NCBI RefSeq assembly: GCF_000152885.1
Contig: NZ_CH672403.1
Coordinates: 241,067 to 305,066 of the forward strand
Direction of reading: 5' to 3'
DNA: 64,000 nt
Source of the DNA: Idiomarina baltica OS145
GTDB taxonomy: Bacteria; Pseudomonadota; Gammaproteobacteria; Enterobacterales; Alteromonadaceae
This document shows, piece after piece, positions 33,424 through 55,175 of this stretch. Numbering within the stretch: position 1 is the stretch's first letter; each line of letters begins with the position of its first letter. A model generated the notes under the pieces. It was not told where the DNA came from, made no database searches, and saw nothing but the letters and a program-made list of their open reading frames with translations. The position numbers and the translations under genes are program-made.

Positions 33424-33443
33424 TGGTGTGGTTGGTGAGTTTG

Positions 33444-33468: not shown

Positions 33469-33471
33469 AAA

Positions 33472-35476: not shown

Positions 35477-35518
35477 AATAGCTTCCCTACCTTCATGTAT
35501 TCCAATGATCTTATGCGG

Positions 35519-35836: not shown

Positions 35837-35866
35837 TCATTAAACCGCTAGGAGATGGTTGGGATA

Positions 35867-35891
35867 GGCGGAGTCGCGCCAAAGGCGCGAC
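35867..35891. repeat. 25-nt hairpin repeat, copy 2, adjoining the island end
   Basis: This is identical to 33444-33468. It ends exactly one base before the left attachment core. On the minus strand the hairpin would directly follow a yicC stop codon, so it might be a former 3' element of a yicC transcript; a T-run is lacking. Confidence 0.75.
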
Positions 35892-35912
35892 CTACTCGAT
35901 GTTTTGGATCTG
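35892..35912 (-). repeat. attL: Left attachment core: displaced copy of the yicC 3' end
   Basis: Read on the minus strand this 21-mer encodes Q-I-Q-N-I-E-stop, the same as the last seven codons of yicC at 54115-54135. 17 of 21 bases match and all four differences are at third codon positions. Similarity stops at both edges. This is the direct repeat expected when an integrase targets the 3' end of yicC and the element brings its own copy of the target. Confidence 0.8.
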
Positions 35913-35973
35913 AATATTTATAAACTACTTATGTATATGATAGTTATGACGAATGATTGAAATAGGCGTTGCA

Positions 35974-35994
35974 TTGTCACCATTTTAGTCACCA
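35974..35994. repeat. Left integrase arm-type repeats
   Basis: TTGTCACCA at 35974 and TAGTCACCA at 35986 form a direct pair with a 12-bp period, 61 bp inside the left core. The same pair and period occur at the right end (53987-54007). This fits accessory (arm) binding sites of the integrase. Confidence 0.6.
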
Positions 35995-36005
35995 ATCAAA
36001 CAGCT

Positions 36006-37115
36006 TCAGATGAAGTCTTCGCCATGATATTCAACTTGGTCTTCGTTCAAGACTGCATGTCTGTAATGCAAGAGGCTGTTAGGTACCGGGTGGGTTGGCT
36101 CGGGACATAAGTATCGCATCGACTGAACGCTTTCTAAAGCATGCAAATTCAATCTGTCTACTATCCAAACGCCTGAAACACCTCTTTTACTTAGCTGCTG
36201 CTCTCTCAACTGCCAAAAACCATCATTTGCCCGGTAAACACTACTATCCCAAGCCCTCATCGTCGAAGTTCCGTAGAGAGCATCTACATTATCGTCCTCT
36301 ATTCTGCCTGGGAGATCTATCGTTTGCACAGCAATAATAAACGGTTTATCGAGTTCACCATATCGCTTTGATTTTTTGCCTAGCTTTCTTATTAATGATG
36401 TCTTTCTGTCTAAAACGCCACCTTGTATCGAACCCATGCCGATTAAGCGATTCTCTCTAATATCTTCTTGATTCTGACGTATTGGGAGGGCCTCAACCTT
36501 TATGGTCAGGCCGCGATCCTCCCACTCTGTTCTGGGCAGGCTTTCTGGAGCAGTTCTTAAAGTTTTCTCACACACTTCAAAATCGAGATTATCAAGCCAA
36601 CGATGAATATGATTAGCGGCCTGAACAGCACTAGGCGGAACAGCAGGCTCTCCCTCATATGAGATACCAATCATAAAATTGGGGTGTGGTCGTTGATCCA
36701 GTTCTAAAAGAAAATCTTCGATTTGTCGATTCGTTGGTAACCCACTGGCATTCATAACTACTGACGCTTCAATATAAAACTGTTCACCATTCTGGTCAGT
36801 AACTAAAAAGTCTGGTCGACGACCATTGTCGTTAGGCAAGACTGGATGTATCTCGAGATGAAAGCCGCGCTCAAGCATCTGAGATGCTAGATATAGTTCA
36901 AAAATGACGGAGTAAAAATGTTCGCTTTCACCACTTTGAAATTTAGCCTTTAACTCTTCACGCTCACACTCATCGGGAAAGTTCCTGAACCACCGCTCTA
37001 TAAGCGACCGCGATGCGGCTATTTCCTCACTAGCACTTCGATTGTAAAGCGCGTATAGAGACTCTCGCGGAAGCAACGGACGACTATCAGTGCGTTCATA
37101 ATCATCAAATAACAT
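36006..37115 (-). CDS. PD-(D/E)xK nuclease-like protein of unknown family
   Basis: The 369-residue protein has a stretch fitting a PD-(D/E)xK nuclease core: a helix FYSVIFELYLASQMLERGF with glutamate (about 75-93), then RRPDFLVTDQNGEQFYIEAS (about 108-127). In this core, D and E are the metal ligands and the usual lysine is replaced by serine. The C-terminal half (residues 200-330) shows no known domain. The ATG at 37115 has AAAGGAG; the longer frame lacks a site. It follows the XRE gene by 29 nt in one operon. A restriction or DNA-damage role is inferred, and the missing lysine leaves activity open. Confidence 0.6.
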   Translation of the reverse strand: MLFDDYERTDSRPLLPRESLYALYNRSASEEIAASRSLIERWFRNFPDECEREELKAKFQSGESEHFYSVIFELYLASQMLERGFHLEIHPVLPNDNGRRPDFLVTDQNGEQFYIEASVVMNASGLPTNRQIEDFLLELDQRPHPNFMIGISYEGEPAVPPSAVQAANHIHRWLDNLDFEVCEKTLRTAPESLPRTEWEDRGLTIKVEALPIRQNQEDIRENRLIGMGSIQGGVLDRKTSLIRKLGKKSKRYGELDKPFIIAVQTIDLPGRIEDDNVDALYGTSTMRAWDSSVYRANDGFWQLREQQLSKRGVSGVWIVDRLNLHALESVQSMRYLCPEPTHPVPNSLLHYRHAVLNEDQVEYHGEDFI

Positions 37116-37144
37116 GTTACCGACTCCTTTCGATCCGACTTGAA

Positions 37145-37387
37145 TTATCCGAGCGGCCCTCGCACTACTTTTATGCCATCCTCTGGTTTCAAGCCAAGGC
37201 ACTCACAATACTGAATAAACTCAACTAAGTCTAACCGTCGCTCTCCCTGCTCGACCTTGCCCACAAAGGAGTGAGGAACTCCCAGCTTTACTGCCAGATC
37301 ACGCATAGTGAGGCCTTGGTCGCATCTGGCTTTTTTGAGCCAGGCAACTAAGCGCTGATGTTGTGGGCTATGAAGTGTCTTGTGCAT
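37145..37387 (-). CDS. XRE-family helix-turn-helix regulator
   Basis: The 80-residue protein is a single HTH_3 domain: LVAWLKKARCDQGLTMRDLA, then KLGVPHSFVGKVEQGERRLD, ending in a helix. This size is typical of controller proteins of restriction-modification loci and of antitoxin-like repressors. I prefer the ATG at 37387 because an upstream TTG would put a perfect palindrome (37401-37420) inside the coding region, whereas here it becomes the promoter operator. It is co-transcribed with the nuclease-like gene. Confidence 0.8.
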   Translation of the reverse strand: MHKTLHSPQHQRLVAWLKKARCDQGLTMRDLAVKLGVPHSFVGKVEQGERRLDLVEFIQYCECLGLKPEDGIKVVRGPLG

Positions 37388-37400
37388 TGTCCCATTCTTA

Positions 37401-37420
37401 GGTACAAGTAGCGTTGTACC
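37401..37420. promoter_or_regulatory. Palindromic operator of the XRE/nuclease operon
   Basis: GGTACAA-gtagcg-TTGTACC has perfect 7-bp arms with 13-bp centre spacing. It lies 14 bp before the XRE start and 40 bp before the divergent gene at 37460, so one dimer could control both. Autoregulation by the XRE protein is the simplest reading. Confidence 0.55.
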
Positions 37421-37459
37421 CAATTCGGGAACAAGGCTGAGCTAAGGAGGGAAACATCA

Positions 37460-38263
37460 ATGAGCTATGGGTATGAGCCTGCGGTTTGGAAAGAACAAGC
37501 AAGAGAGCATTGGGCTGAGTTTCAACCAACACGGTTTCGTGAATTACATGAAGCGGGCAAGCTGGAAGATGCGCTTGATTATGCAGTGGAACAAACTTGG
37601 CGGGAAATGAAGAGCCTCATAGACTCGGGAGTCCCTGCGCACGAAGCATGGGTAATGGTGCGGGAAAACTATTTATTCTTACCGGAAGAGCCTGGTTTAT
37701 GTGACGATGAGTACGAAAATACACCATTCGATGACATTATGAATGAGGTTCACCAGATATTGAATGAGGACTATCAGCGCCAACGTGAAGAGTGGCAAAA
37801 GGAATTTAAACAAAAAGCCGCTCAAACCGAAGAAGCAATTCAAATGATACCCGGTACTAACCAAGTCTCTTCACCAATAGACTGGCTGAATTTAGCTCGT
37901 TGGATACTGATGCTTCCGGTGGCGGTGACAGCTGCATATCTTGCTAGCCAACTAGCGCTGATATTGACAAGCATTGGAATGGCTAGCGATGGCTATTCTA
38001 CTGCATCCTTTTGGGGACAGTTTTATCGCGTAACGACTGAGAATATAGCGTTAGGCGCAGTACTTATACTCGCTGGATCTGCAATCGCACCAACACACAA
38101 ACACATGGTCGCAATTTCATTAGCAGTAGCTTCCTTGCTACTTACAGGATTTCTAGTATACCCAATGCTAGCCTTACGTGATTATTGGGCGTTGTGGGGT
38201 ACTTTCTGTTTATTAGCTGCATTATTGTTAAGCACCGTTTCAGTTTATCGACGTCATCACTAA
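37460..38263 (+). CDS. Unknown protein with C-terminal membrane domain
   Basis: The 267-residue protein has a soluble, acidic and helical N-terminal half (about 1-140), with WREMKSLIDSGVPAHEAWVM, and four membrane segments in residues 145-262. A charged helix with QRQREEWQKEFKQKAAQ precedes the membrane part. I do not recognise a family. Two-part layouts of this type are common among accessory immunity membrane effectors, but nothing here proves that. It has an AAGGAGG site, is divergent from the XRE gene, and is followed by the resolvase-like and mcrBC genes on the same strand. Confidence 0.55.
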   Translation: MSYGYEPAVWKEQAREHWAEFQPTRFRELHEAGKLEDALDYAVEQTWREMKSLIDSGVPAHEAWVMVRENYLFLPEEPGLCDDEYENTPFDDIMNEVHQILNEDYQRQREEWQKEFKQKAAQTEEAIQMIPGTNQVSSPIDWLNLARWILMLPVAVTAAYLASQLALILTSIGMASDGYSTASFWGQFYRVTTENIALGAVLILAGSAIAPTHKHMVAISLAVASLLLTGFLVYPMLALRDYWALWGTFCLLAALLLSTVSVYRRHH

Positions 38264-38349
38264 CTTGCAGATGAATACGTAACAGGGGTATTTTATTGAT
38301 TAATTGTTAGCGATAAGACAAGGTGATCACCCTAATAACCGAAAGGACT

Positions 38350-38907
38350 ATGATGAGCAGCGGAGCGCACAATAAATTAATCGGCCAAATTGGTGAAAAT
38401 CTCGTGGCCGCCAAACTTGGCACGTTGGGTTACTACGCATCACCTTATGCTGGGAGTGTGCCCGGCTTCGATCTTACCGCAGTCGATAGCAAAACCTTAT
38501 CGTCATTTCCCGTGCAAGTTAAATGCAGCACTGGCAACACACTGGTTCACTCTCAAATAGACCGTTGGGTTGAAACGCATATCGATTCAACAGGCAAATA
38601 CTCTTTCGGTGAATTAATTCGGCTCGACCACCCGAATATGCTTTGGATCATGGTTAATCTACCCCATGGTCAGATTGAGAATGCCCGCTACTTTATTTGC
38701 CGTGAATCTGATATTCAGAAGCTGGCTGTCGAACGCTTTATTGCCTTTATTAAGCGTCATAATTACCGGCGCCCCAACGGCGGCAACTCAAAACAAGCCA
38801 TACTAACTCTCAAAGAACTTGGTAGATATGAAGATAATTGGTCGCTCATTGCGCCAGCTAGCAAGACTGTAACAACTCATGATGGAAGGGAATCAAATGA
38901 CTTATAG
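38350..38907 (+). CDS. Resolvase-like PD-(D/E)xK endonuclease
   Basis: The 185-residue protein has the layout of archaeal-type Holliday-junction resolvase or type IV restriction cores: a glutamate in LIGQIGENLVAAKLGTLGY, an aspartate in PGFDLTAVDSK, and the Q-V-K signature in FPVQVKCSTGN. Its C-terminal third is helical and basic. I chose the ATG at 38350 (second at 38353) after GAAAGGA. It ends 11 nt inside the mcrB-like gene and is probably its operon partner. Whether it cuts DNA or only reads structure is not decided by sequence. Confidence 0.6.
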   Translation: MMSSGAHNKLIGQIGENLVAAKLGTLGYYASPYAGSVPGFDLTAVDSKTLSSFPVQVKCSTGNTLVHSQIDRWVETHIDSTGKYSFGELIRLDHPNMLWIMVNLPHGQIENARYFICRESDIQKLAVERFIAFIKRHNYRRPNGGNSKQAILTLKELGRYEDNWSLIAPASKTVTTHDGRESNDL

Positions 38908-40933
38908 CTCAAATGGATTCAAAACCTTTCTCCGCAATGAGCGGAAATCCAATGGCGAGGCATATTCAAATAATACGGTTAGCCAGTATGTCTCAGCTGT
39001 AAATAGAGCCGCACACCATGCAGGTTTTGATTTGTGGTCCTCTCAAAGCGAAGAAGTCGATAACTTTGTGCAAAAGTTTGAACCGGGTCATGAATTTGAA
39101 GAGTTCGGCGCGCAAGGTAACAACACGGTCATATCTGCTTTGCGATTATTAAAAAGATACTTTGCCAGTAGCAACAGTTATTTACTCACGTGGAATCCCG
39201 AAAAATATCACGTTGGCGGTAATTCAGGCGTTGAACTGGGGAACGAACAACAGTGGAGTTGCAATAGCACCAAACCACAAGTGGGAGATCGTGTTTACCT
39301 CATGCAAGTAGGTGTTGAACCAAGGGGAATTATTGCAGCTGGTATCGTTACTCAGGAGTCTTTTGAAGACAAAGATTGGGGTGATGAAACCAAAACAAGA
39401 AAATATATAAAGTTCAAACCAGTAGCCGTACGGAACACCCCTGAAGCTGGTCAACAGATCTTGAACCAGCTGAATCAACTATCCCAAGAAACCGGCATTA
39501 ATTATAGCTGGAGCCCCCAAAGTTCTGGCATCAGCATTCCAAATAAAATATCCGATAAATTGGCGAGTTATTGGTTTATTGAAGATAGCTTGGTTGAGGA
39601 GATATCAATGACCAACAACAGCACCACACAAGTATCTCAGCCTCTCAATCAAATCCTATTCGGCCCACCTGGCACCGGGAAAACGTTCACAACCATTGAG
39701 CGCGCGGTGCGAGCTGCAGAGCCAAATTTCAGTTGGGCCAACCGAGATGAGCTAAAAGCAAAGTACCAAGAACTCATTCGCGAAGGGCGCATTCGGTTCG
39801 TCACCTTTCACCAAAGCTTTAGTTACGAAGACTTTGTGGAGGGGCTTACCGCACATACTGATGATGAAAAGTTAGTCTATGAAAAGCGACTCGGGATTTT
39901 CCGTCAAATCGTCAGAGATGCGAAGGAGCACCAGAACACAGAAGTGAAGAACCCTACTAATTCATTTAGTGATTGTTGGGATGCTTTTTTAACGGAATTT
40001 GAAGATCATCCAGAGGGTGTTCAAATCTCGATGAAGCGGTCCAAATTCATCATCACAGAAGTAGACGGAAATACTATTAGGTTTGATAAAAACCAAGGTG
40101 ATTCTGTTAATACCTTATCTGTCAGCACCCTGGAGGCGATATTTAATGGTGAACGCAGGTTTAATGGGGGGTTAAAACCTTACTATCAATCGCTCATATC
40201 GCATCTTGAGTCTCTGGGTGAGCAACTGGACAAGAAAGCTGTTAAGCGCCAGAACTACGTGCTCATCATCGATGAAATCAATCGCGGTAACATCTCACGG
40301 ATTTTTGGTGAGTTGATCACACTAATCGAACCCTCTAAGCGCTCTGGTACTACCGAAGCGCTAGAGGTCACGCTTCCACTGACTGGCGATCGGTTCTCTG
40401 TGCCCGATAACCTTTACATCATCGGTACAATGAACACTGCCGACCGCTCACTTGCTGGGCTCGATTTGGCTTTGCGTCGTCGCTTCGATTTCATTGAGAT
40501 GCCTCCCCTTCCTGAAGAGCTAAAAGGGGTTAGCGTTGACGGCATTAATGTTGAAAAGATGCTCGACGTTATCAACCGCCGAATTACGGCACTACTCGAT
40601 AAAGACCACTGTATTGGCCATGCCTATTTTATTCACTTGAAAGATAGATCAGACGTTGCCTTAACCGACCTCGCTGAGATTTTTAAGCAGAAGATCATTC
40701 CGCTGCTTCAGGAATACTTCTTTGAAGATTGGCAGCGCATCCGTTGGGTATTGAATGACCAAAGCAAAGCCTCAGCAAATGCATTTATCGTAAAAGATGA
40801 TGCGATTAATTTTGATGAGCTGTTCCCCGGCGATGTGCAGCTAAACTCGCGTGACCGGTGGCGATTGAATGAGTCTGCTTTTGAACAGGCGACATCTTAC
40901 AAACGGATATATGAAGTAGGTAGTGCTGAGTAA
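38897..40933 (+). CDS. mcrB: McrB-type AAA+ GTPase with N-terminal EVE domain
   Basis: The 678-residue protein has three parts. An N-terminal helical region (about 1-100) resembles the DNA-binding part of recombinases (NNTVSQYVSAVNRAAHHAG). A PUA-like EVE domain follows (about 115-235; VGDRVYLMQVG, GIIAAGIVTQESFEDKDW). An AAA_5 motor completes it, with Walker A FGPPGTGKTF (about 255), Walker B LIIDEINRG and sensor GTMNTADRSLAGLDLALRRR. EVE domains recognise modified bases, so this is likely a modification-dependent restriction motor working with McrC. The ATG at 38897 has GGAAGG; an upstream ATG is less well placed. Confidence 0.85.
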   Translation: MTYSSNGFKTFLRNERKSNGEAYSNNTVSQYVSAVNRAAHHAGFDLWSSQSEEVDNFVQKFEPGHEFEEFGAQGNNTVISALRLLKRYFASSNSYLLTWNPEKYHVGGNSGVELGNEQQWSCNSTKPQVGDRVYLMQVGVEPRGIIAAGIVTQESFEDKDWGDETKTRKYIKFKPVAVRNTPEAGQQILNQLNQLSQETGINYSWSPQSSGISIPNKISDKLASYWFIEDSLVEEISMTNNSTTQVSQPLNQILFGPPGTGKTFTTIERAVRAAEPNFSWANRDELKAKYQELIREGRIRFVTFHQSFSYEDFVEGLTAHTDDEKLVYEKRLGIFRQIVRDAKEHQNTEVKNPTNSFSDCWDAFLTEFEDHPEGVQISMKRSKFIITEVDGNTIRFDKNQGDSVNTLSVSTLEAIFNGERRFNGGLKPYYQSLISHLESLGEQLDKKAVKRQNYVLIIDEINRGNISRIFGELITLIEPSKRSGTTEALEVTLPLTGDRFSVPDNLYIIGTMNTADRSLAGLDLALRRRFDFIEMPPLPEELKGVSVDGINVEKMLDVINRRITALLDKDHCIGHAYFIHLKDRSDVALTDLAEIFKQKIIPLLQEYFFEDWQRIRWVLNDQSKASANAFIVKDDAINFDELFPGDVQLNSRDRWRLNESAFEQATSYKRIYEVGSAE

Positions 40934-42234
40934 TGACGTCAACGGTTGTCGTTCGCGAATACGCCTATTTGACCACTGCATCGGTAGCGGCGAACACTCT
41001 TGATCGCGCACATATTAGCGAGTCGGCGTTTCGCTGGCTCGTTGAACTTGGGCAGCAGTTTCGACGCAATGGCCTCCCGTTATTTGAACTTGATAGTCAG
41101 AAGCTTCTTCGTTTGGATAATTACGTCGGCGTACTTGAGTCACCCTGCGGAACAGTGATTGAGGTGCTACCGAAGCACACCACAGAACAAACTTCGGCGG
41201 CCGAGGCTCGCGCTTTGCTTAAACGGCTAATCAAAACCTCGACGCAGCTCTCAGTGCGTGAGGCCGACTTTGCCGATGTTGAGCGATTTGAAATACCGAT
41301 TCGCGAATGGCTTATCACTTGTTTTTTGGGCGAGCTGGAAGTTCTGCTCAAGCGAGGTCTGCAGTTCGATTACCAAGTTCGAGAGGAAGAAGCACGCTTC
41401 TTACGCGGCCAGCTGGATATCGCAAAACAACTGCGCCAGCCCCCCGGAAAAGCGCATGTATTTAATATCCGCCATGACTTGTTTTTACCGGATAGACCAG
41501 AGAACCGCCTTATTAAATCTGCACTTGTTACTGTGTGCTCAGCCACTCAAGACAACGACAACTGGCGGTTAGCACACGAGATAATCTCACAGCTCCTTCA
41601 GTTGCCCGAATCATCGGATATTAGGGCTGACTTCAAGTCTTGGTCAACAGACCGCTTACTGACGCATTACCGCCCGATTAAGCCTTGGTGTGAGTTTATC
41701 CTCAACCAACATGTTCCACTTTCTGTCTCTGGTGGCTGGCGCGGAATAAGCATGCTCTTCCCAATGGAAAAGCTGTTTGAGAACTATGTTGCTGAACAGC
41801 TTCGACGAGCGATTGGCAGCAAGGGTACAGTTAGGACGCAACTTGCTACTGAGTACCTTTGCCAACATAAGGGTAAAGGAGTTTTCAAATTACGACCGGA
41901 TATTGAGGTTGTTATTGGTGACCAGCGATGGATCATGGATACCAAGTGGAAGCTGCTTGATGTAGATAACGGTGGTCAGACCTATGGGTTGAGTGAGAAA
42001 GATTTTTATCAGATGTTGGCCTATGGATCTAAATTATTACATTCTCAAGGAGACTTGGTGTTGATATACCCTGCATGGAAAAATTTTCCAAGCAACGAGA
42101 ACATTTCACCATTTGAGTTTGATAATCAGACGACACTTTTGGTAACCAGCTTCAACTTAAACGATAATACTCGAACTAATGATTGTCGGTGGAACCTGAC
42201 GTTGGCGGAATCATTTGCACAGGTGCACAATTGA
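40933..42234 (+). CDS. mcrC: McrC-type restriction subunit
   Basis: The 433-residue protein matches McrC. It has an N-terminal part with LRLDNYVGVLESPCGTVIEV that contacts the McrB ring, the middle ARFLRGQLDIAKQLR and FLPDRPENRLIKSAL segments, and a C-terminal PD-(D/E)xK nuclease in LRPDIEVVIGDQRWIMDTKW (about 310-330) with D, D and K ligands intact. It cuts DNA when stimulated by McrB. The start ATG overlaps the mcrB stop by one base, so the genes are coupled. Confidence 0.87.
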   Translation: MTSTVVVREYAYLTTASVAANTLDRAHISESAFRWLVELGQQFRRNGLPLFELDSQKLLRLDNYVGVLESPCGTVIEVLPKHTTEQTSAAEARALLKRLIKTSTQLSVREADFADVERFEIPIREWLITCFLGELEVLLKRGLQFDYQVREEEARFLRGQLDIAKQLRQPPGKAHVFNIRHDLFLPDRPENRLIKSALVTVCSATQDNDNWRLAHEIISQLLQLPESSDIRADFKSWSTDRLLTHYRPIKPWCEFILNQHVPLSVSGGWRGISMLFPMEKLFENYVAEQLRRAIGSKGTVRTQLATEYLCQHKGKGVFKLRPDIEVVIGDQRWIMDTKWKLLDVDNGGQTYGLSEKDFYQMLAYGSKLLHSQGDLVLIYPAWKNFPSNENISPFEFDNQTTLLVTSFNLNDNTRTNDCRWNLTLAESFAQVHN

Positions 42235-42405
42235 GTAGACCATCTGCCATACGAGGCATCAATTTACTGACGGTTAGAACCATACTCAGTCAGTAAGCCT
42301 AGAATTTGAAACTCGGATCATCTTGACCGGATATGAGCGTGCAAATAATTTCATTAGAATATAGTTACAATTAATAGAATGACTTTTTGATATTATCGTA
42401 GATTG

Positions 42406-42437
42406 AAAAGCTGAAAGCTTATCAATAATCAGCTTTT
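42406..42437. promoter_or_regulatory. Leader hairpin before hsdM
   Basis: AAAAGCTGA and TCAGCTTTT are perfect 9-bp arms around a 14-nt loop. The second arm runs on as TTTTATTTA and lies 15 nt before the hsdM GTG. It could be an operator, a weak attenuator or the terminator of mcrC. Confidence 0.4.
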
Positions 42438-42452
42438 ATTTAGGGGTATATA

Positions 42453-45295: not shown

Positions 45296-48200
45296 CGCCC
45301 CCGCCATCCCCCGCTTATGCCTACTCCGAGGATGCCCTGGTCGAGCAGCCCGCTATCGAGCTGTTCGCAGACTTGGGCTGGGACACCGCCAATCTCTATG
45401 GGGAGTGGTCGGGTACGGTATCGAGCGAGGGACGGCAGACACAACAGGATGTGGTGCTGGTGCCTCGGCTGCAGGTGGCTTTGGAGAAGCTCAACCCCGA
45501 GCTACCCGCCGATGCCGTGGAGAAGGCCATCGAGGAGCTGACCCGCGACCGCTCCAAGCTGCTCCCGGTGAACGCCAACCTGGAGGTTTACCGGCTGCTC
45601 AAGGATGGCGTAAAGGTCGAGGTGTCGGGCGATGATGGTGGCACCGCTATCGAGACGGTGCGGGTGATCAACTGGAGCAAGCCCGAGGAGAACGACTTCC
45701 TGCTGACCTCGCAGTTCTGGGTAAGGGGTGAGCTGCATACCCGACGTACCGATCTTGTCGGCTTCGTGAATGGGCTACCGTTGCTATTCGTGGAGCTGAA
45801 GGCCAGCCACAAGACCCTCAAGGCTGCCTATGACGGCAACCTGAGAGATTACCGCTCGGTGATCCCTCAGTTGTTCACCTATAACGCCGTGGTGATGCTC
45901 TCCAACGGCTCCGAGACCCTGGTGGGCAGCACCTTCTCCCCCTGGGAGCATCTCTTCGAGTGGAAGCGGATCAACGACGAGGGTGAGAAAGGCGTGGTGT
46001 CGCTGGAAACTGCCATCCGAGGGATCGCTGAGCGGACACGGCTTCTGGATATCGTGGAGAACTTCACGGTGTTCGAGGAGGCCCAGGGTGGCACCATCAA
46101 GAAAATCGCCAAGAACCACCAGTACCTCGGGGTGAATAAGGCCATCGCCGAGCTGCAGCGCATCAAGAATCGCCCTCCCGGTGAGGCGGGTCGGCTTGGG
46201 GTCTTCTGGCATACCCAGGGTTCGGGCAAGTCCCTCTCCATGGTGTTCTTCACTCAGAAGATCCACCGCACCATCCCCGGCAACTGGACGTTTGTGGTCG
46301 TCACCGACCGCAACGAGCTGGACGAGCAGATCTACAAGACCTTTGCTGCCACCAGGGCAATCAACGAGGTAGAGGCCCACGCCGAGAGCGGTGCTCACCT
46401 CAAGCAGCTCCTCAGCGAGGATCACCGCTACGTCTTCACGCTGATCCAGAAGTTCGGAACTAAGCAAGGTGAGACATATCCCAAGCTCTCCGACCGCCAA
46501 GACATCATCGTTATCACCGACGAAGCTCACCGCTCCCAATACGACACTTTGGCCATGAACATGCGGACGGCGCTGCCCCATGCTGCCTTCCTGGGCTTCA
46601 CTGGGACACCACTTATGGCTGGTGAGGAGAAGACCAAGGAGGTGTTCGGGGACTACATCTCGGTCTACGACTTCGGACAGTCCATCGCCGATGGGGCCAC
46701 GGTGCCGCTGTACTACGAGAACCGGATCCCCGAACTGCAGTTGATCAATGAGAACCTCAACGACGATCTGACTCGGTTGCTGGAAGATGCCGAGCTGGAC
46801 GAGGATCAGGAGAAGAAGGTCGAGCGCGTGTTCGCCCGTGAATACCACCTGATCACCCGTGATGACCGCCTGGAAGCCATCGCCGAGGATCTGGTGCAGC
46901 ACTTCGTCGGCAGGGGCCACCAAGGCAAGGCGATGATGGTCTGTATCGACAAGGCCACCGCCGTGAAGATGTACAACAAGGTTCAGGCCCACTGGAAAGA
47001 CTACCTGGCCCGACTTCAGGCTGACCTGGCGTCTGCCCCCGAGGAGCAGCTGGAGGCGCTAAAGCACAAGATCAAGGTGCTGGAGACGACCGATATGGCA
47101 GTGGTGGTTTCCCAGGGCCAGAACGAGGTAAAGGAGCTGGCGGACAAGGGGCTCGACATCCTGCCTCACCGCAAGCGCATGGTAGAGGAAGACCTAGACG
47201 AGCAGTTCAAAGATCCTGATGGACCGCTGCGGTTGGTGTTTGTCTGCGCCATGTGGATCACCGGCTTCGATGTGCCGTCCTGCTCGACCATCTACCTAGA
47301 CAAGCCGATGAAGAATCACACCCTGATGCAGACCATTGCCAGGGCAAACCGCAAGTACCCCGGCAAGGAAGCGGGCCTGATCGTGGACTACGCGGGTGTC
47401 TTCAGGAAGCTGCAGGAGGCGCTGGCCATCTACGGTGGAGCTTCATCCAAGGTCGCTGAACCGAGACCTGGATATGGGGATGAGCCACCCCAAGACGGTG
47501 ATACACCGATCCACCAGAAGGCCGAACTGGTGGAGTACCTCAAGCATCTGCTGGCCAAGGGGATCACTTTCCTGACCGAGAAGCAGGTAGACACAGAGGC
47601 TATCAAAACGGCTGGAGGCTTCGATAAGGTTGCCCTGCTGGATGATGCCGTTGAGAAGCTACTTGAGAGTGAAGAGACCAAGAAGGCCTTCTTGAACCTA
47701 GCCAGGGCCACCTCCCGAGTCTACCGAACCATCCTCCCCGACCCCTCAGCCAATGATCTGGCCCCCGATGCGGTACTGCTCTCCGTACTGGCCCAGAAGA
47801 TCAAAGCCCTTGAGCCCGAGGTGGATATCTCTCAGGTGATGAAGGACGTGGACGACCTGCTGGATCAGTCGGTCGCTCCAGTGCCCTACGTCATCGAGGA
47901 TGAGGATGACAAGCCCCTATTCGACCTCAGCCAGATCGACTTCGAGAAGCTCAAGGAGCGGTTCAATAAGGGCAAGAAGCGCACCGAGGCAGAGAAGCTA
48001 CGGGCGCTGCTGAACCAGAAACTGGAGAGCATGGTGGCCAAGAACCCCAGCCGCACCGACTTCATGGAGAAGCTGCAGAAGCTGATCGAGAAGTACAACT
48101 CGGGAAGCCTGAACATCGAGGCGTTCTTCCAGCAGCTGATGAAGTTCACCGAAGAGCTGCAGGAGGAAGACCAGCGGGCAATCCGTGAGGGGCTGACCGA

Positions 48201-48510
48201 AGAGGAGCTGGCGCTGTTCGACATCATCACCAAGCCAGCCCCGGAGATGACCGACAAAGAGGTAGCCCAGGTGAAGGCAATGTGTCGGGAGCTACTGGAG
48301 ACCCTCAAGGAGGAGAAACTGGTACTGGACTGGCGGAAGAAGGCCCAGGCTAAGGGCGATGTCCGCCGTACCCTGGAAATCGTCTTCGACCGGGGACTAC
48401 CGGAGAGCTTCGATGAGGCGGTCTACAACGAGAAGTGCGAGGCAGCGTTCCATCACCTGATGACCAGCTACTACGGTGGTGGGCAGAGCGTCTATTCAGC
48501 CAGGTGTTAA
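45292..48510 (+). CDS. hsdR: Type I restriction endonuclease motor subunit (R subunit)
   Basis: The 1072-residue protein has an N-terminal PD-(D/E)xK nuclease with D, E and K ligands in LVGFVNGLPLLFVELKASHK (about 155-175). A superfamily 2 translocase follows with Walker A TQGSGKSLSMVFFT (about 310), DEAH (ITDEAHRSQY) and motif VI QTIARANRKYPG. A helical C-terminal region of the DUF3387 type, rich in glutamate and lysine, completes it. It pumps DNA and cuts at a distance when the site is unmodified. The whole gene is GC-rich compared with the rest of the island. The reading frame is intact. Confidence 0.94.
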   Translation: MTPPPSPAYAYSEDALVEQPAIELFADLGWDTANLYGEWSGTVSSEGRQTQQDVVLVPRLQVALEKLNPELPADAVEKAIEELTRDRSKLLPVNANLEVYRLLKDGVKVEVSGDDGGTAIETVRVINWSKPEENDFLLTSQFWVRGELHTRRTDLVGFVNGLPLLFVELKASHKTLKAAYDGNLRDYRSVIPQLFTYNAVVMLSNGSETLVGSTFSPWEHLFEWKRINDEGEKGVVSLETAIRGIAERTRLLDIVENFTVFEEAQGGTIKKIAKNHQYLGVNKAIAELQRIKNRPPGEAGRLGVFWHTQGSGKSLSMVFFTQKIHRTIPGNWTFVVVTDRNELDEQIYKTFAATRAINEVEAHAESGAHLKQLLSEDHRYVFTLIQKFGTKQGETYPKLSDRQDIIVITDEAHRSQYDTLAMNMRTALPHAAFLGFTGTPLMAGEEKTKEVFGDYISVYDFGQSIADGATVPLYYENRIPELQLINENLNDDLTRLLEDAELDEDQEKKVERVFAREYHLITRDDRLEAIAEDLVQHFVGRGHQGKAMMVCIDKATAVKMYNKVQAHWKDYLARLQADLASAPEEQLEALKHKIKVLETTDMAVVVSQGQNEVKELADKGLDILPHRKRMVEEDLDEQFKDPDGPLRLVFVCAMWITGFDVPSCSTIYLDKPMKNHTLMQTIARANRKYPGKEAGLIVDYAGVFRKLQEALAIYGGASSKVAEPRPGYGDEPPQDGDTPIHQKAELVEYLKHLLAKGITFLTEKQVDTEAIKTAGGFDKVALLDDAVEKLLESEETKKAFLNLARATSRVYRTILPDPSANDLAPDAVLLSVLAQKIKALEPEVDISQVMKDVDDLLDQSVAPVPYVIEDEDDKPLFDLSQIDFEKLKERFNKGKKRTEAEKLRALLNQKLESMVAKNPSRTDFMEKLQKLIEKYNSGSLNIEAFFQQLMKFTEELQEEDQRAIREGLTEEELALFDIITKPAPEMTDKEVAQVKAMCRELLETLKEEKLVLDWRKKAQAKGDVRRTLEIVFDRGLPESFDEAVYNEKCEAAFHHLMTSYYGGGQSVYSARC

Positions 48511-48631
48511 TTACCTCCAATACGTTGCTTTAGGAGGGATAAAATTCTGTCTGCTCATGAAGCTACTCAATTTAATTTTGTTTACTGAATAATAATCGGC
48601 AATGTTGCTTGGCAAAAGCTCATCTCAATTT

Positions 48632-49873
48632 TTAACTAGTCCACCAAGCCCATACCAATGCAATCATGCCAACGAGCGCCAGCGAAATTTTTAACAAAAT
48701 ACGAGAACCCCGTATATCATAGAGCTTTACCAAAAACTGAGCATTAGACACTCTCGAATAGTACTCTTTCGTGGCTAGATAAAGAATGAAGGCAAAAATA
48801 ACAATCAGAAGAGGCCAAAACCATGATAAGTTGCCAGCCAATTCCACTTTAGGAGACCTTTGAAAATTAAAATTTGTAAATCCCCAAATGGAAATGAGTG
48901 CAAACCCCAACCATACTTTTGATTTTGCTTTTATAGTTTCAACTTTTTGTTCAGCTCTCGTAATTGTATATTCTTGAGATTCAAAGGAAGTTTCTACATT
49001 TTCTAAATATTTTTGCTCTCTATCGCGCTCCGACTCATCTATCAGGTTTTCTCTATACAACGCAATTACTAATGACTTAGCGTAGCCGATTATACCTTTA
49101 GCATTGTTAGACTCGTGCAGCCTGTTATCAATTCTTTGGGTTCTGCTAAGTGAGGTTAGTTCACGCTTAAGTTGACCAAGTAATCGAAGACCACACCCTG
49201 ATGTTTCAAGCGTGATAGTGGTCAAAGAATCTTGTTCATCAACGTGGTGCCGATGACTATGGATTGAATACTTTAAATAATAAAATGCCTGTCGGGCTAA
49301 CAGGTACAAACTCTCATCATCGAGTTCATCACCACCTTCGTTTTGCTCAATTCTAATCAAGCCAGTAGGCGTTACATTGAACTTAAACGAAGCTTTAAAA
49401 CAGTCACTGTGAAGACCTGTAATAGAGCGAGGGTCATTGATTTGGCTATCAAGCTTATCAAACTCTGAACTAATATTACTTTTAGTTAGCTCATGAGAAA
49501 TTTGATGGACCGAAACGTCATGAACTTCGTTTTTATCCGCTGGTTCAGCTTCCTTCGGATATAGCAGAATATTACCGCTTAAACTTCTACAGTCCATATG
49601 ATCGGAGACCGAAACTTTAGCTGTAACAAAGACTCGAAAAGCTCCTAATGATTCTTCATGCTCATCAGTGTCTCGCCAATTAACTCTTGATTGAAGAACG
49701 ATTAGTCTGTCGTGCTTGCTCGACACTCCCGATGCAGAATGATTTAGCTCAATAATTCGCTCATCACTGATTTTCTTGTCTGTAAATCCACCTTTAATAC
49801 CGACCTTCATTAGCCCGAAATCAAGGTTACCGTTTACGCAAGGAATCCATCCTATATATTTATGTTTATGCAT
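48632..49873 (-). CDS. Unknown protein with C-terminal membrane segments
   Basis: The 413-residue protein has a large soluble part (about 1-305) with no domain I recognise, including a histidine-rich patch YSIHSHRHHVDEQDS and a charged helix before the membrane. Three hydrophobic segments follow near 315-330, 340-360 and 390-410. The annotated ATG directly follows the T-run of a terminator and has no ribosome site, so the transcript or the start is unusual (the next ATG at residue 22 is also poorly placed). It lies between hsdR and the phage-like genes on the opposite strand, with base composition unlike hsdR. A defence role is only suggested by place. Confidence 0.55.
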   Translation of the reverse strand: MHKHKYIGWIPCVNGNLDFGLMKVGIKGGFTDKKISDERIIELNHSASGVSSKHDRLIVLQSRVNWRDTDEHEESLGAFRVFVTAKVSVSDHMDCRSLSGNILLYPKEAEPADKNEVHDVSVHQISHELTKSNISSEFDKLDSQINDPRSITGLHSDCFKASFKFNVTPTGLIRIEQNEGGDELDDESLYLLARQAFYYLKYSIHSHRHHVDEQDSLTTITLETSGCGLRLLGQLKRELTSLSRTQRIDNRLHESNNAKGIIGYAKSLVIALYRENLIDESERDREQKYLENVETSFESQEYTITRAEQKVETIKAKSKVWLGFALISIWGFTNFNFQRSPKVELAGNLSWFWPLLIVIFAFILYLATKEYYSRVSNAQFLVKLYDIRGSRILLKISLALVGMIALVWAWWTS

Positions 49874-49899
49874 AAAAAATCCCGTCTAGTTGACGGGAT
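49873..49899 (-). terminator. Terminator touching the start of the unknown membrane gene
   Basis: On the minus strand ATCCCGTC-aacta-GACGGGAT is followed by TTTTT, a strong terminator for the gene at 49934-50170. The last T bases run straight into the ATG at 49873 of the next gene. Confidence 0.8.
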
Positions 49900-49933
49900 C
49901 TTATTGTAATAATTAGGTGCCAGCAAGCAAACT

Positions 49934-50170
49934 TTATGCTAAGCGTTTAAACCACGAATCGCTGGGCTTTTCATCATGCACTACACGCCGCTTGTTAGTT
50001 TTATCAATGACGATTCCATGACATAAACCAGAACCAGACGGGGTGACGCCATTTTCGCGCAGTTCAACCTCTCGGCGCTTCATAGCCCGAGATTTCTTAT
50101 ATAGCGCTACTTGGAAGCCCACATACACTGCGAGACAGCCAACTACAAAAACTATTAATGCGTCAAACAT
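49934..50170 (-). CDS. Small membrane-anchored protein of unknown function
   Basis: The 78-residue protein has one N-terminal membrane segment (ALIVFVVGCLAVYVGFQVAL), a basic patch KKSRAMKRRE just after it, and a soluble tail. I know no family. The ribosome site (GGGAGAAGG) is good, and a clear terminator follows. Its size and setting resemble small genes in inovirus-like or satellite modules, but this is only resemblance. Confidence 0.55.
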   Translation of the reverse strand: MFDALIVFVVGCLAVYVGFQVALYKKSRAMKRREVELRENGVTPSGSGLCHGIVIDKTNKRRVVHDEKPSDSWFKRLA

Positions 50171-50336
50171 GATCCTTCTCCCTTGCCTAACCCGTCAAAA
50201 CGGGTGCCCGAATTTATCACAAATTAGGTCATTAGTCGAGCGAGTATGCTCTTAAGATGGTTTGTAAACTTTTCGTTGTCAAGCATTTTACGGTGAATGG
50301 TGAGAAGACTCCCGACGTCTTGATATGAATTAGTTG

Positions 50337-51059
50337 CTACGGATCCGGGTCACTCCACTCAACGCGATCAGGGTCTATTCTTCGGATGGGTTTAGCGGTC
50401 AGCATACCGTTTTTTCTCTCAACACGATAAGACCATCCCAATTGCATCATATGCCCTGACGCGTCAATAAATCGAAAAATGCGATACTGTTTGCGAACGC
50501 CGCTAAAATCCACCATCAAGGTAGATGCCCAACCAAGGGGGCGAGTCGGCTTATCGATTGACTCCACGATGCCGTATTTTCCCGCCATCTCGATGGCTCC
50601 GTAATAATGGTCGGCTGCAAAATCAGAACGCATTAATACTTGGCTACCCACCTCAATAGCTATCGTTTCTGGTTCTTCATCAAAAGCTCGTTCTGACCCG
50701 CAAAATTTCTTGTAGTCGATTTGAGATACGACCTTACCACCGATCTTTCTTGTCTTATCTCGCCCTTGTATTCTTATGTGTGACATTTTACACGGTCCAA
50801 AATTCTGCAATCTTAAAGCGAATCTCGACTCACTATCTCCAACGATCACCAAGTAATGCGTTCCCGGTATTAATGCAACTCCGTTAGGGTCACGAACTTT
50901 GTGAACAGCCATGTAACGAATCACACTATTGCGCTTTACTCGAACTCTAATCTCGTGCTGGAAGCTAAACCCTTCAACTTTCCACTTTGTCAAGTCTGAG
51001 AGCGTAACAATGTCGCCAGCTTGTACTCTGAATTGCTTGTCGTGTGAGCTACGTTTCAT
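50337..51059 (-). CDS. Protein of unknown function in the phage-like module
   Basis: The 240-residue basic, beta-rich protein (for example FSFQHEIRVRVKRNSVIRYM and IRIQGRDKTRKIGGK) has no known domain and no membrane segment. The basic, strand-rich character suggests nucleic-acid contact, an inference. The start has AAAGGA. It lies between the Gp2-like gene and the small membrane gene, all on the minus strand. Confidence 0.5.
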   Translation of the reverse strand: MKRSSHDKQFRVQAGDIVTLSDLTKWKVEGFSFQHEIRVRVKRNSVIRYMAVHKVRDPNGVALIPGTHYLVIVGDSESRFALRLQNFGPCKMSHIRIQGRDKTRKIGGKVVSQIDYKKFCGSERAFDEEPETIAIEVGSQVLMRSDFAADHYYGAIEMAGKYGIVESIDKPTRPLGWASTLMVDFSGVRKQYRIFRFIDASGHMMQLGWSYRVERKNGMLTAKPIRRIDPDRVEWSDPDP

Positions 51060-51130
51060 TTCAAATCCTTTTGCTCAACTAAAGGTTGTTCTTGAGATTT
51101 ATAGATTAGGTCGAATCACCGCGATTAAGT

Positions 51131-51685
51131 TCAGTATAATTTCGTCAATGAGGTGCTAAACCGCCGCACATTGCTCAACTTGACTTCTTTTCCTCTAAGT
51201 TTCGCTAGATAACTTAAATGCCACACCACTTGGAATAATTGATCAATGTCAGGCCTATTTAGATTGTAGTATCTGATCGCTGTGTATCGCCCATAATTTC
51301 GCCAATATCGTTCAATCCATTCCGTCAAACGGTAGGACGAGTTAACTCTGCTGCCATCTAATGCAATTGCTATATGGTAATGTGGGGTCTTAGCAGAGTG
51401 AATTTCACGAGCCCAACATATTGCTACTCTTCTCGAGTAGTGCTCTCTACAGATTTTAGTTTTGATCCGACACAAAAATAGACTTAGTTGCTTATTATTC
51501 GGTTGCGATGTGTTACAGGATAGGTCGAACCGGAAAAGAAACACCTTTCTATGATGGGTCAGCATCCATAACGGTACATCAATAACTTTGCGAAGGATTT
51601 GAGGATCTAACGCACTCCCACGGGTATTAACTTGCCAGTCGACCCCTCTGTGATGAAACCAAGTTTCCTTATTAGGGAAAGCCAT
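51131..51685 (-). CDS. Inovirus Gp2 / YagK-YfjJ-like protein
   Basis: The 184-residue protein matches the YagK/YfjJ C-terminal domain family found in inovirus-like and P4-like elements: VWMLTHHRKVFLFRFDLS-type start region, ICWAREIHSAKTPHYHIAIA with an H-x-H pair, and YLAKLRGKEVKLSNVRRFS at the end. The H-x-H and later tyrosines recall HUH replication initiators, and such genes are thought to act in element replication. The ribosome site is weak. The AlpA regulator lies upstream on the same strand. Confidence 0.7.
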   Translation of the reverse strand: MAFPNKETWFHHRGVDWQVNTRGSALDPQILRKVIDVPLWMLTHHRKVFLFRFDLSCNTSQPNNKQLSLFLCRIKTKICREHYSRRVAICWAREIHSAKTPHYHIAIALDGSRVNSSYRLTEWIERYWRNYGRYTAIRYYNLNRPDIDQLFQVVWHLSYLAKLRGKEVKLSNVRRFSTSLTKLY

Positions 51686-51839
51686 AAGATACCCATAAAT
51701 TAGATATTATTAATTACCCAGTAAATTCCCCATGGACTGTGCTCCTCCATGAGCCATGTTGATTGGGCTAGGTATAAATAGTTGCACGCTCAAAAAGTTG
51801 GGTTGACGCTCTTAACAGTCCGAGAAAGACACCTGTGGA

Positions 51840-52070
51840 TCAAGTCAGTCCATTTTCGGACACTTCATCAATCCACTTTTCAAGATCGCTCAAGCGCCAT
51901 GCAACGGATCGCGTACCGAGGTGAACACGCTTAGGAAACTTGCCTTGCTTCTCAAGTTCCCAGCGTCGCTGACGTGCTAACCCGGTAATCGCTCTGCATT
52001 CCCGTTCACGAACTAAACGATCTTTAGGCTTTCTCTGCACAGGTATGAAGGTTGTGGTTTGTATTTTCAT
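51840..52070 (-). CDS. alpA: AlpA-family regulator
   Basis: The 76-residue MerR-like winged helix of the AlpA/excisionase type contains RECRAITGLARQRRWELEKQ and FPKRVHLGTRSVAWRLSDLE with KWIDE. In P4 and CP4-57-type islands AlpA switches on the integrase/excision functions. The start has GAGG 9 nt upstream. It lies between the Gp2-like gene and a long hairpin. Confidence 0.88.
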   Translation of the reverse strand: MKIQTTTFIPVQRKPKDRLVRERECRAITGLARQRRWELEKQGKFPKRVHLGTRSVAWRLSDLEKWIDEVSENGLT

Positions 52071-52128
52071 GTCGTTGCCTCTAACAGGTTGTGAATGTCA
52101 GAGGCAAATTAACTGATAGGAATCGGCG

Positions 52129-52172
52129 ACATGCGCGCAACATTTGCGCTGTCCGTGGGGTTGCGCGCATGT
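52129..52172. repeat. Long perfect hairpin, candidate origin or transfer site
   Basis: ACATGCGCGCAAC and GTTGCGCGCATGT are perfect 13-bp arms around an 18-nt loop. It starts one base after the stop of the gene at 52174 and has no T-run on either side, so it is unlikely to be a terminator. It lies 59 bp upstream of alpA. A nick or origin site for the Gp2-like protein is one possibility. Confidence 0.45.
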
Positions 52173-52173
52173 T

Positions 52174-52713
52174 TCACGATAAATTTTGAATTGCTTTATA
52201 GAAGAAGTTTTTTGTCGGCTTAAATTTACGTTCGATCGGTGGCTCTGGACTTCCATGAAGGTTGCCCATCGTTGCGTCAATCGGCTTACCATCGGTTTCG
52301 GTTTCACTTTCAAATTTCCGATCTTCCCAATAAAGTTTTAAAAGCCATTCGTCGGCACTATTTGGAGCATCTTTCTTCGGCCGCATAACCTTCTCGTTAT
52401 CGCGCCGCCATTGCTTTTCTTGCAGATATTTTTGTAACGCCCACTCTCGTAATTCGAATTTGTAATCATCTAATGAACGATGGCGAGCCAAGGCGGCATT
52501 TTTAGGCTGCTTTCTCCACTTCACATTAGCCTTGAAAACCGGTTCTACCGAATCATAAACAGCCCCAGCTTTCTGCCGCAGCATTTCAATCTCACTCCTA
52601 AGCAATTCCGCCTCGCGCTCAAATCCAGCATCTTTAATCCTCTGCAAGCTTTGCTCTATTTGCGCCAGCCTGAGTGCATTAGGACCTTTGATAAATTCAT
52701 CACGTTGACTCAT
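52174..52713 (-). CDS. Unknown helical protein next to the integrase
   Basis: This 179-residue, highly charged helical protein has a coiled-coil-like N-terminal part (EQSLQRIKDAGFEREAELLR) and a tryptophan-rich basic middle (WALQKYLQEKQWRRDNEKV). I do not recognise a family. The ATG at 52713 is 5 nt from GGGAGG; it overlaps the integrase gene by 14 nt and so should be co-expressed with it. The reading frame ends at the long hairpin. Confidence 0.55.
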   Translation of the reverse strand: MSQRDEFIKGPNALRLAQIEQSLQRIKDAGFEREAELLRSEIEMLRQKAGAVYDSVEPVFKANVKWRKQPKNAALARHRSLDDYKFELREWALQKYLQEKQWRRDNEKVMRPKKDAPNSADEWLLKLYWEDRKFESETETDGKPIDATMGNLHGSPEPPIERKFKPTKNFFYKAIQNLS

Positions 52714-53935
52714 CACTACCTCCCTGTATTAATGGTTCAAGGAAATCAGCTACTTTGGCATTTGCTTCTCTACGCTCTTCCAGGTAATCGTATTGATTGT
52801 AGACCTTTAGGACGCCTCGCAGTTCATGGTTCAAGCATCTCTCGGCAATGGCATCTGGGACTTTCAACTTAGCAAGCAATGTTCGATAGGTTCTGCGTAG
52901 GTCATGCACCGTAAAGTGGTCGACTCCGGCTGAACCAAGAACATTGGGGTAGGGTTGTTTCTTGCTATCAACTTTCTGTCCGAATAGTTTGGCTAACGCA
53001 TGATTCAACGTATCGTCAGAAATATACCCTCGTCTTTTGCTTCTTCTGCGCGAAGGAAACACATATTCAGAACCTGCACAGCGCACTTTTAGCTCTTCGA
53101 TCACGGGTAGCATTTGATTTGGGATCGGCACCGTAATTGGTTTACTGGTTTTGTTCTCGGGAAAGAACCAGGTCTGGTCCTCTAAATCAATTTGTTCCCA
53201 CCGCGACGATATGATTTCAGATTTTCGACAGCCTAGGTGCAAGAGCAAAAGGCATGCAAGATAGTTGTCACGAGTGAAAATGTCTTGCTGCTTTCGGAAA
53301 ACAGAGAATGCAGTTTTTATTTCATCCGCCGACAACGACCGCTCTCGAGGCGAATAGTCTTGGCCAACATCGACTCCGGTAAAATAGATCGCTGGATTAC
53401 TGCTGACCAAATTTAGTTTGATGCCGTGATTAAACATACGCTTCATTATGCTTAGCGCTCGCGATGAGGTCGTCTTATTACCTGTCTGCTGCAGCTCATC
53501 AAGAACATTGCGAACATCAATCGGTGTAATGTCTTTTAGTGAATATTTGCCCAAGCGACTTTTGAGGTAGTTACGATATACGCGCTCGTCATTACCTGGA
53601 TGCTTAACGCGGTTCTTTACTGCGCGGTCAAACCAATCATTAAAAAGATCGTGAACTGTGTGAATAGCACCACCAGTTTCTCGACGACGTTCAAGCTGAG
53701 GGTCAATGCCATTCTTAACTTTTGAGCGAATTGCAGCAGCTTGGATCTTAGCGTCAGCCAACGAGCAGTTAGGATACCCTTCCGACAAGGTTATCGTCTT
53801 GCGCTTACCGGCGTAGGTATATCGCACAAACCATGACGCAGTACCCTGTTCAATTCTGAAATAAAGCCCATCACCGACACTTTTCCGAACGTCCTCTCCA
53901 GCTCTAACAAGTGCTTTGATCTGACTGCTGTTCAT
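52700..53935 (-). CDS. int: Tyrosine integrase of the yicC island
   Basis: The 411-residue integrase is of the P4-like type. An N-terminal DUF4102-like arm-binding domain (YTYAGKRKTITLSEGYPN) is followed by a core-binding domain and a catalytic domain with R in LLLHLGCRKSEIISSRW, H-x-L-R-R in HFTVHDLRRTY, and tyrosine nucleophile in KVYNQYDYLEERRE. It recombines the attachment cores at 35892 and 54115. The ATG at 53935 has GGAG. The gene sits against yicC as in other islands of this site, with TTGTCACCA repeats in its promoter region. Confidence 0.93.
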   Translation of the reverse strand: MNSSQIKALVRAGEDVRKSVGDGLYFRIEQGTASWFVRYTYAGKRKTITLSEGYPNCSLADAKIQAAAIRSKVKNGIDPQLERRRETGGAIHTVHDLFNDWFDRAVKNRVKHPGNDERVYRNYLKSRLGKYSLKDITPIDVRNVLDELQQTGNKTTSSRALSIMKRMFNHGIKLNLVSSNPAIYFTGVDVGQDYSPRERSLSADEIKTAFSVFRKQQDIFTRDNYLACLLLLHLGCRKSEIISSRWEQIDLEDQTWFFPENKTSKPITVPIPNQMLPVIEELKVRCAGSEYVFPSRRRSKRRGYISDDTLNHALAKLFGQKVDSKKQPYPNVLGSAGVDHFTVHDLRRTYRTLLAKLKVPDAIAERCLNHELRGVLKVYNQYDYLEERREANAKVADFLEPLIQGGSDEST

Positions 53936-53948
53936 GACTATCTCCAAA

Positions 53949-54007
53949 TGGTGACAAAACCTAAAGATGGAGACCCTATAAATTATTTGTCACCACCCTT
54001 GTCACCA
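53949..54007. repeat. Right integrase arm-type repeats
   Basis: TTGTCACCA occurs at 53987 and 53999 (12-bp period) and inverted (TGGTGACAA) at 53949. The paired copies mirror those at the left end (35974, 35986). They lie between the integrase start and the yicC core, so they may serve both recombination and control of the integrase. Confidence 0.65.
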
Positions 54008-54050
54008 CAATATAGCGGACAATCACGAACATTGCATTACCATTAAATAC

Positions 54051-54076
54051 AAAAAAGGCCGCAATGCCGCGACCTT
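54051..54076 (-). terminator. Terminator downstream of yicC
   Basis: On the minus strand AAGGTCGC and GCGGCCTT form an 8-bp stem with one mismatch around a 6-nt loop, followed by TTTT. It would end yicC transcription 39 nt after the stop and shield it from the island. Confidence 0.65.
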
Positions 54077-54114
54077 ATCCAAACTTAGTATACTTAACAA
54101 AACTTAACATGACC

Positions 54115-54135
54115 CTATTCAATATTCTGGATCTG
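54115..54135 (-). repeat. attR: Right attachment core within the yicC 3' end
   Basis: These are the last seven codons of yicC including the stop (Q-I-Q-N-I-E-stop). They are matched at 35892-35912 with four silent differences. The insertion leaves the YicC protein sequence unchanged. Confidence 0.8.
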
Positions 54136-54978: not shown

Positions 54979-55175
54979 GGCGTATCCTACTTTTTTGTCG
55001 GGAGGTCTTTCCTTCAACCTGCCGAAAACAATGTGTGCGTTAAGCGTATAAGCCAAATATTACCTGTGCAAAGAGGCAATATGAAGTAATAGTACAAAAA
55101 AGATGTCACACTTTTCTGTGCGAGTCTGACCTTATTGAGCAACCTTTATTAAAAGTGACTCAATAGGAACGTATT

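Follow-up and report, generated by a model that had tools for sequence, protein, structure and literature searches.

The DNA considered here, called the window, is a 64-kb stretch of the 2.77-Mb genome of Idiomarina baltica OS145 (G000), which was compared with 18 further genomes of the same genus. It carries the gene yicC, a tyrosine integrase gene (int) adjoining the yicC 3′ end, 167 bp from the stop codon, and, 18.2 kb away, a second copy of the last yicC codons. The copy joined to yicC is called the attL core below, and the distant one the attR core. The features needed first are:

54115–54978, minus strand: yicC, 287 amino acids, intact, with Pfam YicC-like_N and YicC-like_C; its final 13 nucleotides probably supplied by the island
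54115–54135, minus strand: attL core, joined to yicC, CAGATCCAGAATATTGAATAG (position and pattern search)
35892–35912, minus strand: attR core, apparently the displaced native yicC end, CAGATCCAAAACATCGAGTAG
54128–54134, minus strand: putative 7-bp strand-exchange block AGATCCA at attL, core positions 2–8 (from 31 attL/attR pairs)
35905–35911, minus strand: putative 7-bp strand-exchange block AGATCCA at attR (from the same pairs)
52700–53947, minus strand: int, tyrosine integrase, 415 amino acids (Pfam Phage_integrase 3.1e-19, Arm-DNA-bind_3 2.7e-18)

Both 21-mers encode QIQNIE-stop and agree at 17/21 positions, the mismatches falling at positions 9, 12, 15 and 18, each of them a third codon position. 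With up to three mismatches allowed, a degenerate core pattern finds just these two sites in the 64 kb, against 0.05 expected, and two sites were reached in none of 100 shuffles of the window. An earlier reading of this DNA, the original prediction, had described the same coordinates and letters and had held the likeness to be beyond chance, and both statements stand. It had also remarked that the distant copy has no yicC attached; the neighbour found there instead is a C-terminal integrase fragment (35519–35797).

The empty site and the native core

The sister genome G011 has a yicC that is 99% identical to that of G000, with no island inserted, and its best integrase match is only 27% identical. 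In this genome the window segments 29877–33468 and 54114–58000 run together as one stretch, with 96.7 and 96.8% identity, and both 35892–54114 and 33469–35891 are missing. At the joint the yicC end CAGATCCAAAACATCGAGTAG is followed by GTCGCGCCTTTGGCGCGACTCCGCC, and the two equal window 35867–35912 at 46/46 bases. Because yicC of G011 ends in the letters found at 35892 and continues into the same flank, the 35892 core can be assigned as native and the 54115 core as having arrived with the island. By this comparison, the 35892 copy is evidently the native yicC end pushed aside, and the copy that now ends yicC came with the island.

The original prediction had proposed that the cores bound an 18.2-kb island, that one of them came from another genome, and that yicC of an island-free relative would tell which is native. 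The empty site bears out the first two points, and the comparison answers the third with the 35892 copy. It had also counted an island-free relative with the 35892 sequence in place against the island. G011 is literally such a relative, yet its copy is the end of yicC itself, which supports the island.

The 7-bp block in paired cores

A related integrase was found beside yicC at 18 of the 20 loci in a first set and at 31/31 in a second. Locus L167 has no yicC within its 4.2 kb, and none was seen at L123 (G036) or L127 (the second G076 element). The integrase search, counting the own genome, gave matches in 16/19 genomes of the genus at E ≤ 0.001 (many of them other integrases), in 18/98 of a family sample at 1e-80, and in 45/394 of the order and 4/369 of the class at 1e-75; part of these matches were followed to the far end of the island.

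The far core was located in 31 of 46 yicC elements with a related integrase (4/4 of the present kind, 2/2 in Marinomonas, and 11/21 and 14/19 in two larger sets). The 7-mer at positions 2–8 is identical between attL and attR in 30 of these 31 pairs. When attR is shuffled among the elements the mean is 21.2, and none of 20,000 shuffles attains 30. In six pairs at least one side carries a 7-mer that is not AGATCCA, and attL and attR agree in five of these (AGATACA, AGATTCA, AGGTGCA, AGTTACA and AGGTACA). For the Marinomonas genomes G152 and G153 the agreement was predicted from attL alone and set down alongside the search, and it held in both.

Over the 31 pairs, attL and attR differ at position 1 in 7 cases and within positions 2–8 in 1. 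Past the block they differ at position 9 in 9, at 12 in 7, at 13 in 3, at 15 in 19 and at 18 in 10, and in the stop codon at position 20 in 11 and at 21 in 15. Expressed as cells, the wobble positions 9, 12, 15 and 18 differ in 45/124, and positions 3 and 6 in 1/62. The variation at position 6 is 0.346 between elements and 0.032 within them, and position 3 never varied; the between/within values are 0.426/0.290 for position 9, 0.452/0.226 for 12, 0.710/0.613 for 15 and 0.323/0.323 for 18.

These counts lend statistical support to a 7-bp identity rule, and strand exchange most likely takes place inside AGATCCA, with mismatches tolerated only outside it. The original claim that the integrase tolerates mismatches would accordingly hold for the rest of the core and fail within the block.

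We now turn to the interpretation. The attachment site of the island (attP) would hold a copy of the last yicC codons, QIQNIE-stop, and the integrase would exchange strands within AGATCCA, at cut positions that we infer from the pairs. The yicC gene would keep its own body and end in 13 bases supplied by the island, and the 13 native ones would be moved 18.2 kb away together with the downstream DNA. YicC is unchanged because the supplied codons are synonymous. We give a probability of about 0.9 to this reading, that is, to an 18.2-kb integrase island in the yicC 3′ end, with strands exchanged inside AGATCCA and the yicC tail supplied by the island. The island may well be mobile at present.

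In the window, attP would read AATATTC-AGATCCA-GAATATT, where the left arm of the island mirrors its right half as an inverted repeat about the 7-mer. With this repeat attP resembles a regular recombinase core site; attB lacks the left half. The inverted-repeat fit over the 31 elements averages 5.5/10. Shuffled arms score 3.0, and so does the displaced right half when paired with a yicC left arm; in this test a single fixed yicC arm served for every host, and 6/31 arms were hand-picked where the 21-mer had two candidates.

This symmetry bears on an alternative in which the wobble bases of the core were selected by integrase binding and do not reflect an origin in another genome. Since attP is partly an inverted repeat, and the fit drops a little when right halves are permuted between elements (172 vs 162, p = 0.022), some selection of this kind could be imagined. 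However, when set against the island arm, the supplied halves have no advantage over the displaced ones (a better fit in 9 of 31, an equal one in 15 and a worse one in 7), and we consider the explanation rather improbable. The same tally gives no support to the narrower idea that symmetry with this arm decided which wobble bases the island core has.

Closely related islands give a further view of the cores. Integrases 85–96% identical adjoin yicC in G015, G031 (Pseudidiomarina piscicola) and G032 (P. sediminum), the match in G015 containing one in-frame TAA. In the four islands (G000, G015, G031 and G032) the DNA after the stop codon is near letter-for-letter alike, and the G032 island is 93.6% identical to that of G000 over 9.2 kb. 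The displaced end in G015 is QIQNLE-stop and the supplied one QIQNIE-stop. The preservation of YicC stated in the original prediction is thus correct for G000 and not absolute in the family.

It has also to be considered that strands could be exchanged on the stop-codon side, in which case the host would keep its own yicC end and the borrowed end of the island would be left at the far side. The likeness of the four islands after the stop, while the 21-mer varies, looks as if the 21-mer were owned by the host, and the contrast between G032 and G000 described below points the same way. Against this, it is the distal core of G000, and not the one joined to yicC, that equals island-free G011 with its native flank, which rejects the possibility for G000. 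In addition, the distal core of G015 ends in the stop TGA and has a flank resembling those that follow yicC in G005 and G008, and the codon broken at position 1 is in attR, not attL, in the 7 pairs that differ there. Exchange at the stop codon is therefore very unlikely. A history without any integrase event, with the repeat as a yicC tail duplicated by homologous or repeat-driven recombination, is hardly credible: such recombination is possible nearby, where a 25-bp repeat includes a hairpin with many genome copies, but the yicC-associated integrase family, the putative arm sites, the 31 core pairs and an empty site that is cleanly joined all speak against it.

Several points weigh against exchange within the 7-mer, or limit how far it can be generalized. 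The supplied cores of G032 and G000 differ at 4/4 sense wobble sites past the 7-mer, and in the stop. Third positions of identical int residues differ at 0.208 between the two, and drift would give 4/4 with a probability of 0.002 by simple arithmetic, this being the most extreme of three comparisons (G031 2/4, G015 1/4). A swap of the core with that of a host along the way is possible. The pair in G866 differs inside the 7-mer, at position 6. Furthermore, positions 9–21 are also closer within an element than when shuffled (74 vs 105 mismatches, with 0/20,000 shuffles as low), so that relatedness accounts for part of the 7-mer agreement. Kinship between the current and earlier hosts of an island plays a part, and it weakens the 7-mer rule somewhat.

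The search itself also matters here. The attR patterns were built from yicC codons with few mismatches allowed, so that part of the excess of third-position differences is built into the search. Within the 7-mer, wobble was left free in every search at positions 3 and 6 alone, and of these two just 6 varied. The set of 19 elements comprised all nine second-set loci with an attL 7-mer other than AGATCCA and ten others, the rest of that set not being followed; five of the nine, chosen for their unusual 7-mer, gave no distal core. In total the distal core is missing for 15 of the 46 elements, namely G127, G076 (C6), G075, G107, G038, G118, G149, G006 (a stretch of only 8.5 kb), G014 and G002 in the 21-element set, and G423, G813, G721, G711 (only 7.6 kb) and G606 in the 19-element set. 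The distal core of G153 is on another contig, and a backwards control pattern matched once in that genome too. Finally, the direct assignment of native and foreign cores depends on a single sister genome, G011.

The reverse-strand control gave 0 matches in the set of 21 stretches, and in the set of 19 none at up to one mismatch and one with two (G813). This match was left uncounted, as were the second matches in G065 (QI*NIE) and G041 (QLPNIE) and the one in G107 (two mismatches). No distal core was found in L121 (G111) over 3.5 kb or in L134 (G136) over 2.6 kb. The pair count also leaves out G012 L052 5212–12237, where two yicC-type cores with different 7-mers lie 7 kb apart and no related integrase was detected between them.

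Island genes, putative arm sites and an older remnant

From attL inward, int is followed by a 180-residue protein, an AlpA-family protein, an initiator-like protein and the proteins at 50337–51059 and 48632–49873. Further inward, on the opposite strand, come HsdR, HsdS, HsdM, McrC and the McrB-like protein. Last before attR are two proteins without known function, a helix-turn-helix protein and one resembling PD-T7-5. Judged by its profile matches, the cargo is mainly restriction genes:

52174–52716, minus strand: 180-amino-acid protein beside int, common to the four islands; no match in Pfam or NCBIfam searches
51840–52070, minus strand: AlpA-family small protein, candidate excisionase (Pfam Phage_AlpA 1.5e-16), whose position among the genes corresponds to that of Xis21 in GI21
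51131–51685, minus strand: weakly replication-initiator-like protein (Pfam YagK_YfjJ_C 1.3e-6; REP_ORF2-G2P 5.3e-6, under the family cut-off)
50337–51059, minus strand: 240-amino-acid protein, no match in Pfam or NCBIfam searches
48632–49873, minus strand: 413-amino-acid protein, no match in Pfam, PADLOC or NCBIfam
45292–48510, plus strand: HsdR, type I restriction subunit (profile matches)
44012–45295, plus strand: HsdS, type I specificity subunit (profile matches)
42453–44015, plus strand: HsdM, type I methyltransferase (profile matches)
38879–42234, plus strand: McrB-like AAA ATPase (38879–40933; Pfam AAA_5 8.8e-13) and McrC (40933–42234; McrBC 4.8e-96)
36006–37202, minus strand: protein weakly similar to the anti-phage protein PD-T7-5 (PADLOC 1.5e-9)

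The initiator likeness of 51131–51685 suggests that the excised island may replicate. There is no tRNA gene in the window and no Rfam match at gathering score. In the plasmid collection, no relatives were found by megablast with the whole island or by blastn with 48511–54114.

Pattern scans gave the following putative arm-type integrase sites near the island ends:

53987–54007, minus strand: two sites TGGTGACAA, 12 bp apart, at +108 and +120 from the stop
35974–35994, minus strand: two sites TGGTGACNA, 12 bp apart, at −70 and −82 from the core
53949–53957, plus strand: a fifth TGGTGACAA, in the opposite direction, directly before the int start codon

The window holds 8 copies of TGGTGACNA against 1.5 expected, 5 of the 8 at the island ends. 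In 4/4 islands of this kind the TGGTGAC repeats sit at identical offsets, −82 and −70 towards attR and +108 and +120 towards int, and they are most likely the arm-type sites of the integrase.

It is important to note that the DNA distal to the island is not plain chromosome. It appears to be a second remnant of 2.4 kb, so that the islands are stacked:

33469–35891, no strand: second, older insert (remnant), 2.4 kb, missing from G011, bounded by a 25-bp repeat at 33444–33468 and 35867–35891
35519–35797, minus strand: C-terminal fragment of a second yicC-type integrase, 45% identical to int residues 307–412

The best pieces of the fragment are 90–93% identical to integrases, several of them broken, of G002, G014, G018 and G136, which adjoin yicC or a yicC-type core. 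A similar junction directly after yicC is found in G004 (82% over 189 bp). The segment 33469–35891 has the look of a decayed earlier island, and if the yicC end is reusable as a landing site, a remnant beside the present island is what one would expect. Tandem islands behind one yicC are seen in G018 (L076 17985–19416), where a second yicC-type core is directly followed by a second integrase without internal stops.

The repeat around the remnant includes the 19-bp hairpin GTCGCGCCTTTGGCGCGAC, which comes after the native yicC end and has 28 exact copies in the genome. As many as 25 of these lie within a 15-kb stretch of contig C9 (L074, G000 C9:140500–158500), partly ~85 bp apart; an open reading frame there (L074 5804–6358) looks by eye like a REP-associated transposase.

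Beyond the remnant, the protein at 30247–33423 combines PLD and helicase features with DUF3427 and a PADLOC type IV restriction match. It is also present in G011 (98%), and is therefore probably older than both inserts. A small gene of 98 amino acids (29876–30172, minus strand) lies between a GGDEF gene and the helicase, in a stretch with 92.8% DNA identity in G003, whose yicC protein is just 76% identical; a recent exchange of this region is possible. At 29858–29877 each of G011, G012 and G004 has ~2 kb of extra DNA, which was thus probably lost from G000.

Relation to known islands

Landing in the last codons of a gene with a matching copy of their own is the ordinary insertion mode for such islands. 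Phage 21 and e14 in icd of E. coli are known cases in which a mobile element supplies the synonymous 3′ end of a protein gene; there the replaced segment is longer, and both the integrase and the gene are different. An island of the present type can enter a conserved protein gene of many species harmlessly, since apparently just 7 bases need to match and the rest is replaced by mostly synonymous codons. Which hosts are open to an island can thereby be tested at the level of single bases, and the pile-up of islands behind yicC becomes easier to understand.

One can speculate about a compatibility code in the second codon of the yicC tail, by which an island would integrate only where the 7-mer of the host matches its own (AGATCCA, AGATACA, AGATTCA, AGGTGCA, AGTTACA or AGGTACA). 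We regard this as doubtful, though worth stating. If true, silent or near-silent changes in one host codon would split bacteria into separate pools of defence islands, and the other wobble sites of the yicC tail would be swapped freely at each landing. A literature search on gene-restoring integration found nothing and one on overlap and wobble only unrelated work, which establishes the priority of the 7-bp rule neither way.

The yicC 3′ end is a published target of mobilizable genomic islands of the MGIVflInd1 type, which are mobilized by SXT/R391 elements, and excision and transfer have been studied by experiment (PMC5397120, PMC4344509). A strain name, yicC::DUP(MGIVflInd1), suggests that double copies at yicC were already known (PMC4344509). 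These islands resemble the present one in having an integrase in the yicC 3′ end. They have a small recombination directionality factor, RdfM, of which the AlpA-family protein here (51840–52070) may be a counterpart. The present island differs from them in its restriction-gene cargo.

SGI1-like elements at yicC share the target gene and likewise have their own integrase cluster (PMC8409611). Unlike them, the present island showed no tra genes in its 15 Pfam-scanned proteins: no Tra or Mps domains (cf. traG, traN, mpsA) were found there, the 78-amino-acid frame 49934–50170 and other short frames being outside the scan and Tra proteins not being used as queries.

Similar in layout is the 21-kb yicC-type island GI21 of Shewanella, with the order int, hypothetical protein and AlpA-family Xis and with type I restriction-modification cargo (PMC8978831). 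It is reported together with the related yicC islands GISpuPO1 and GISspANA3 as composite islands in that genus. GI21, however, lies outside yicC and has 9-bp att sites, in contrast to the island inside yicC discussed here (PMC8978831). Islands at the yicC end are thus already known, and what is added here is a sharper map of the crossover.

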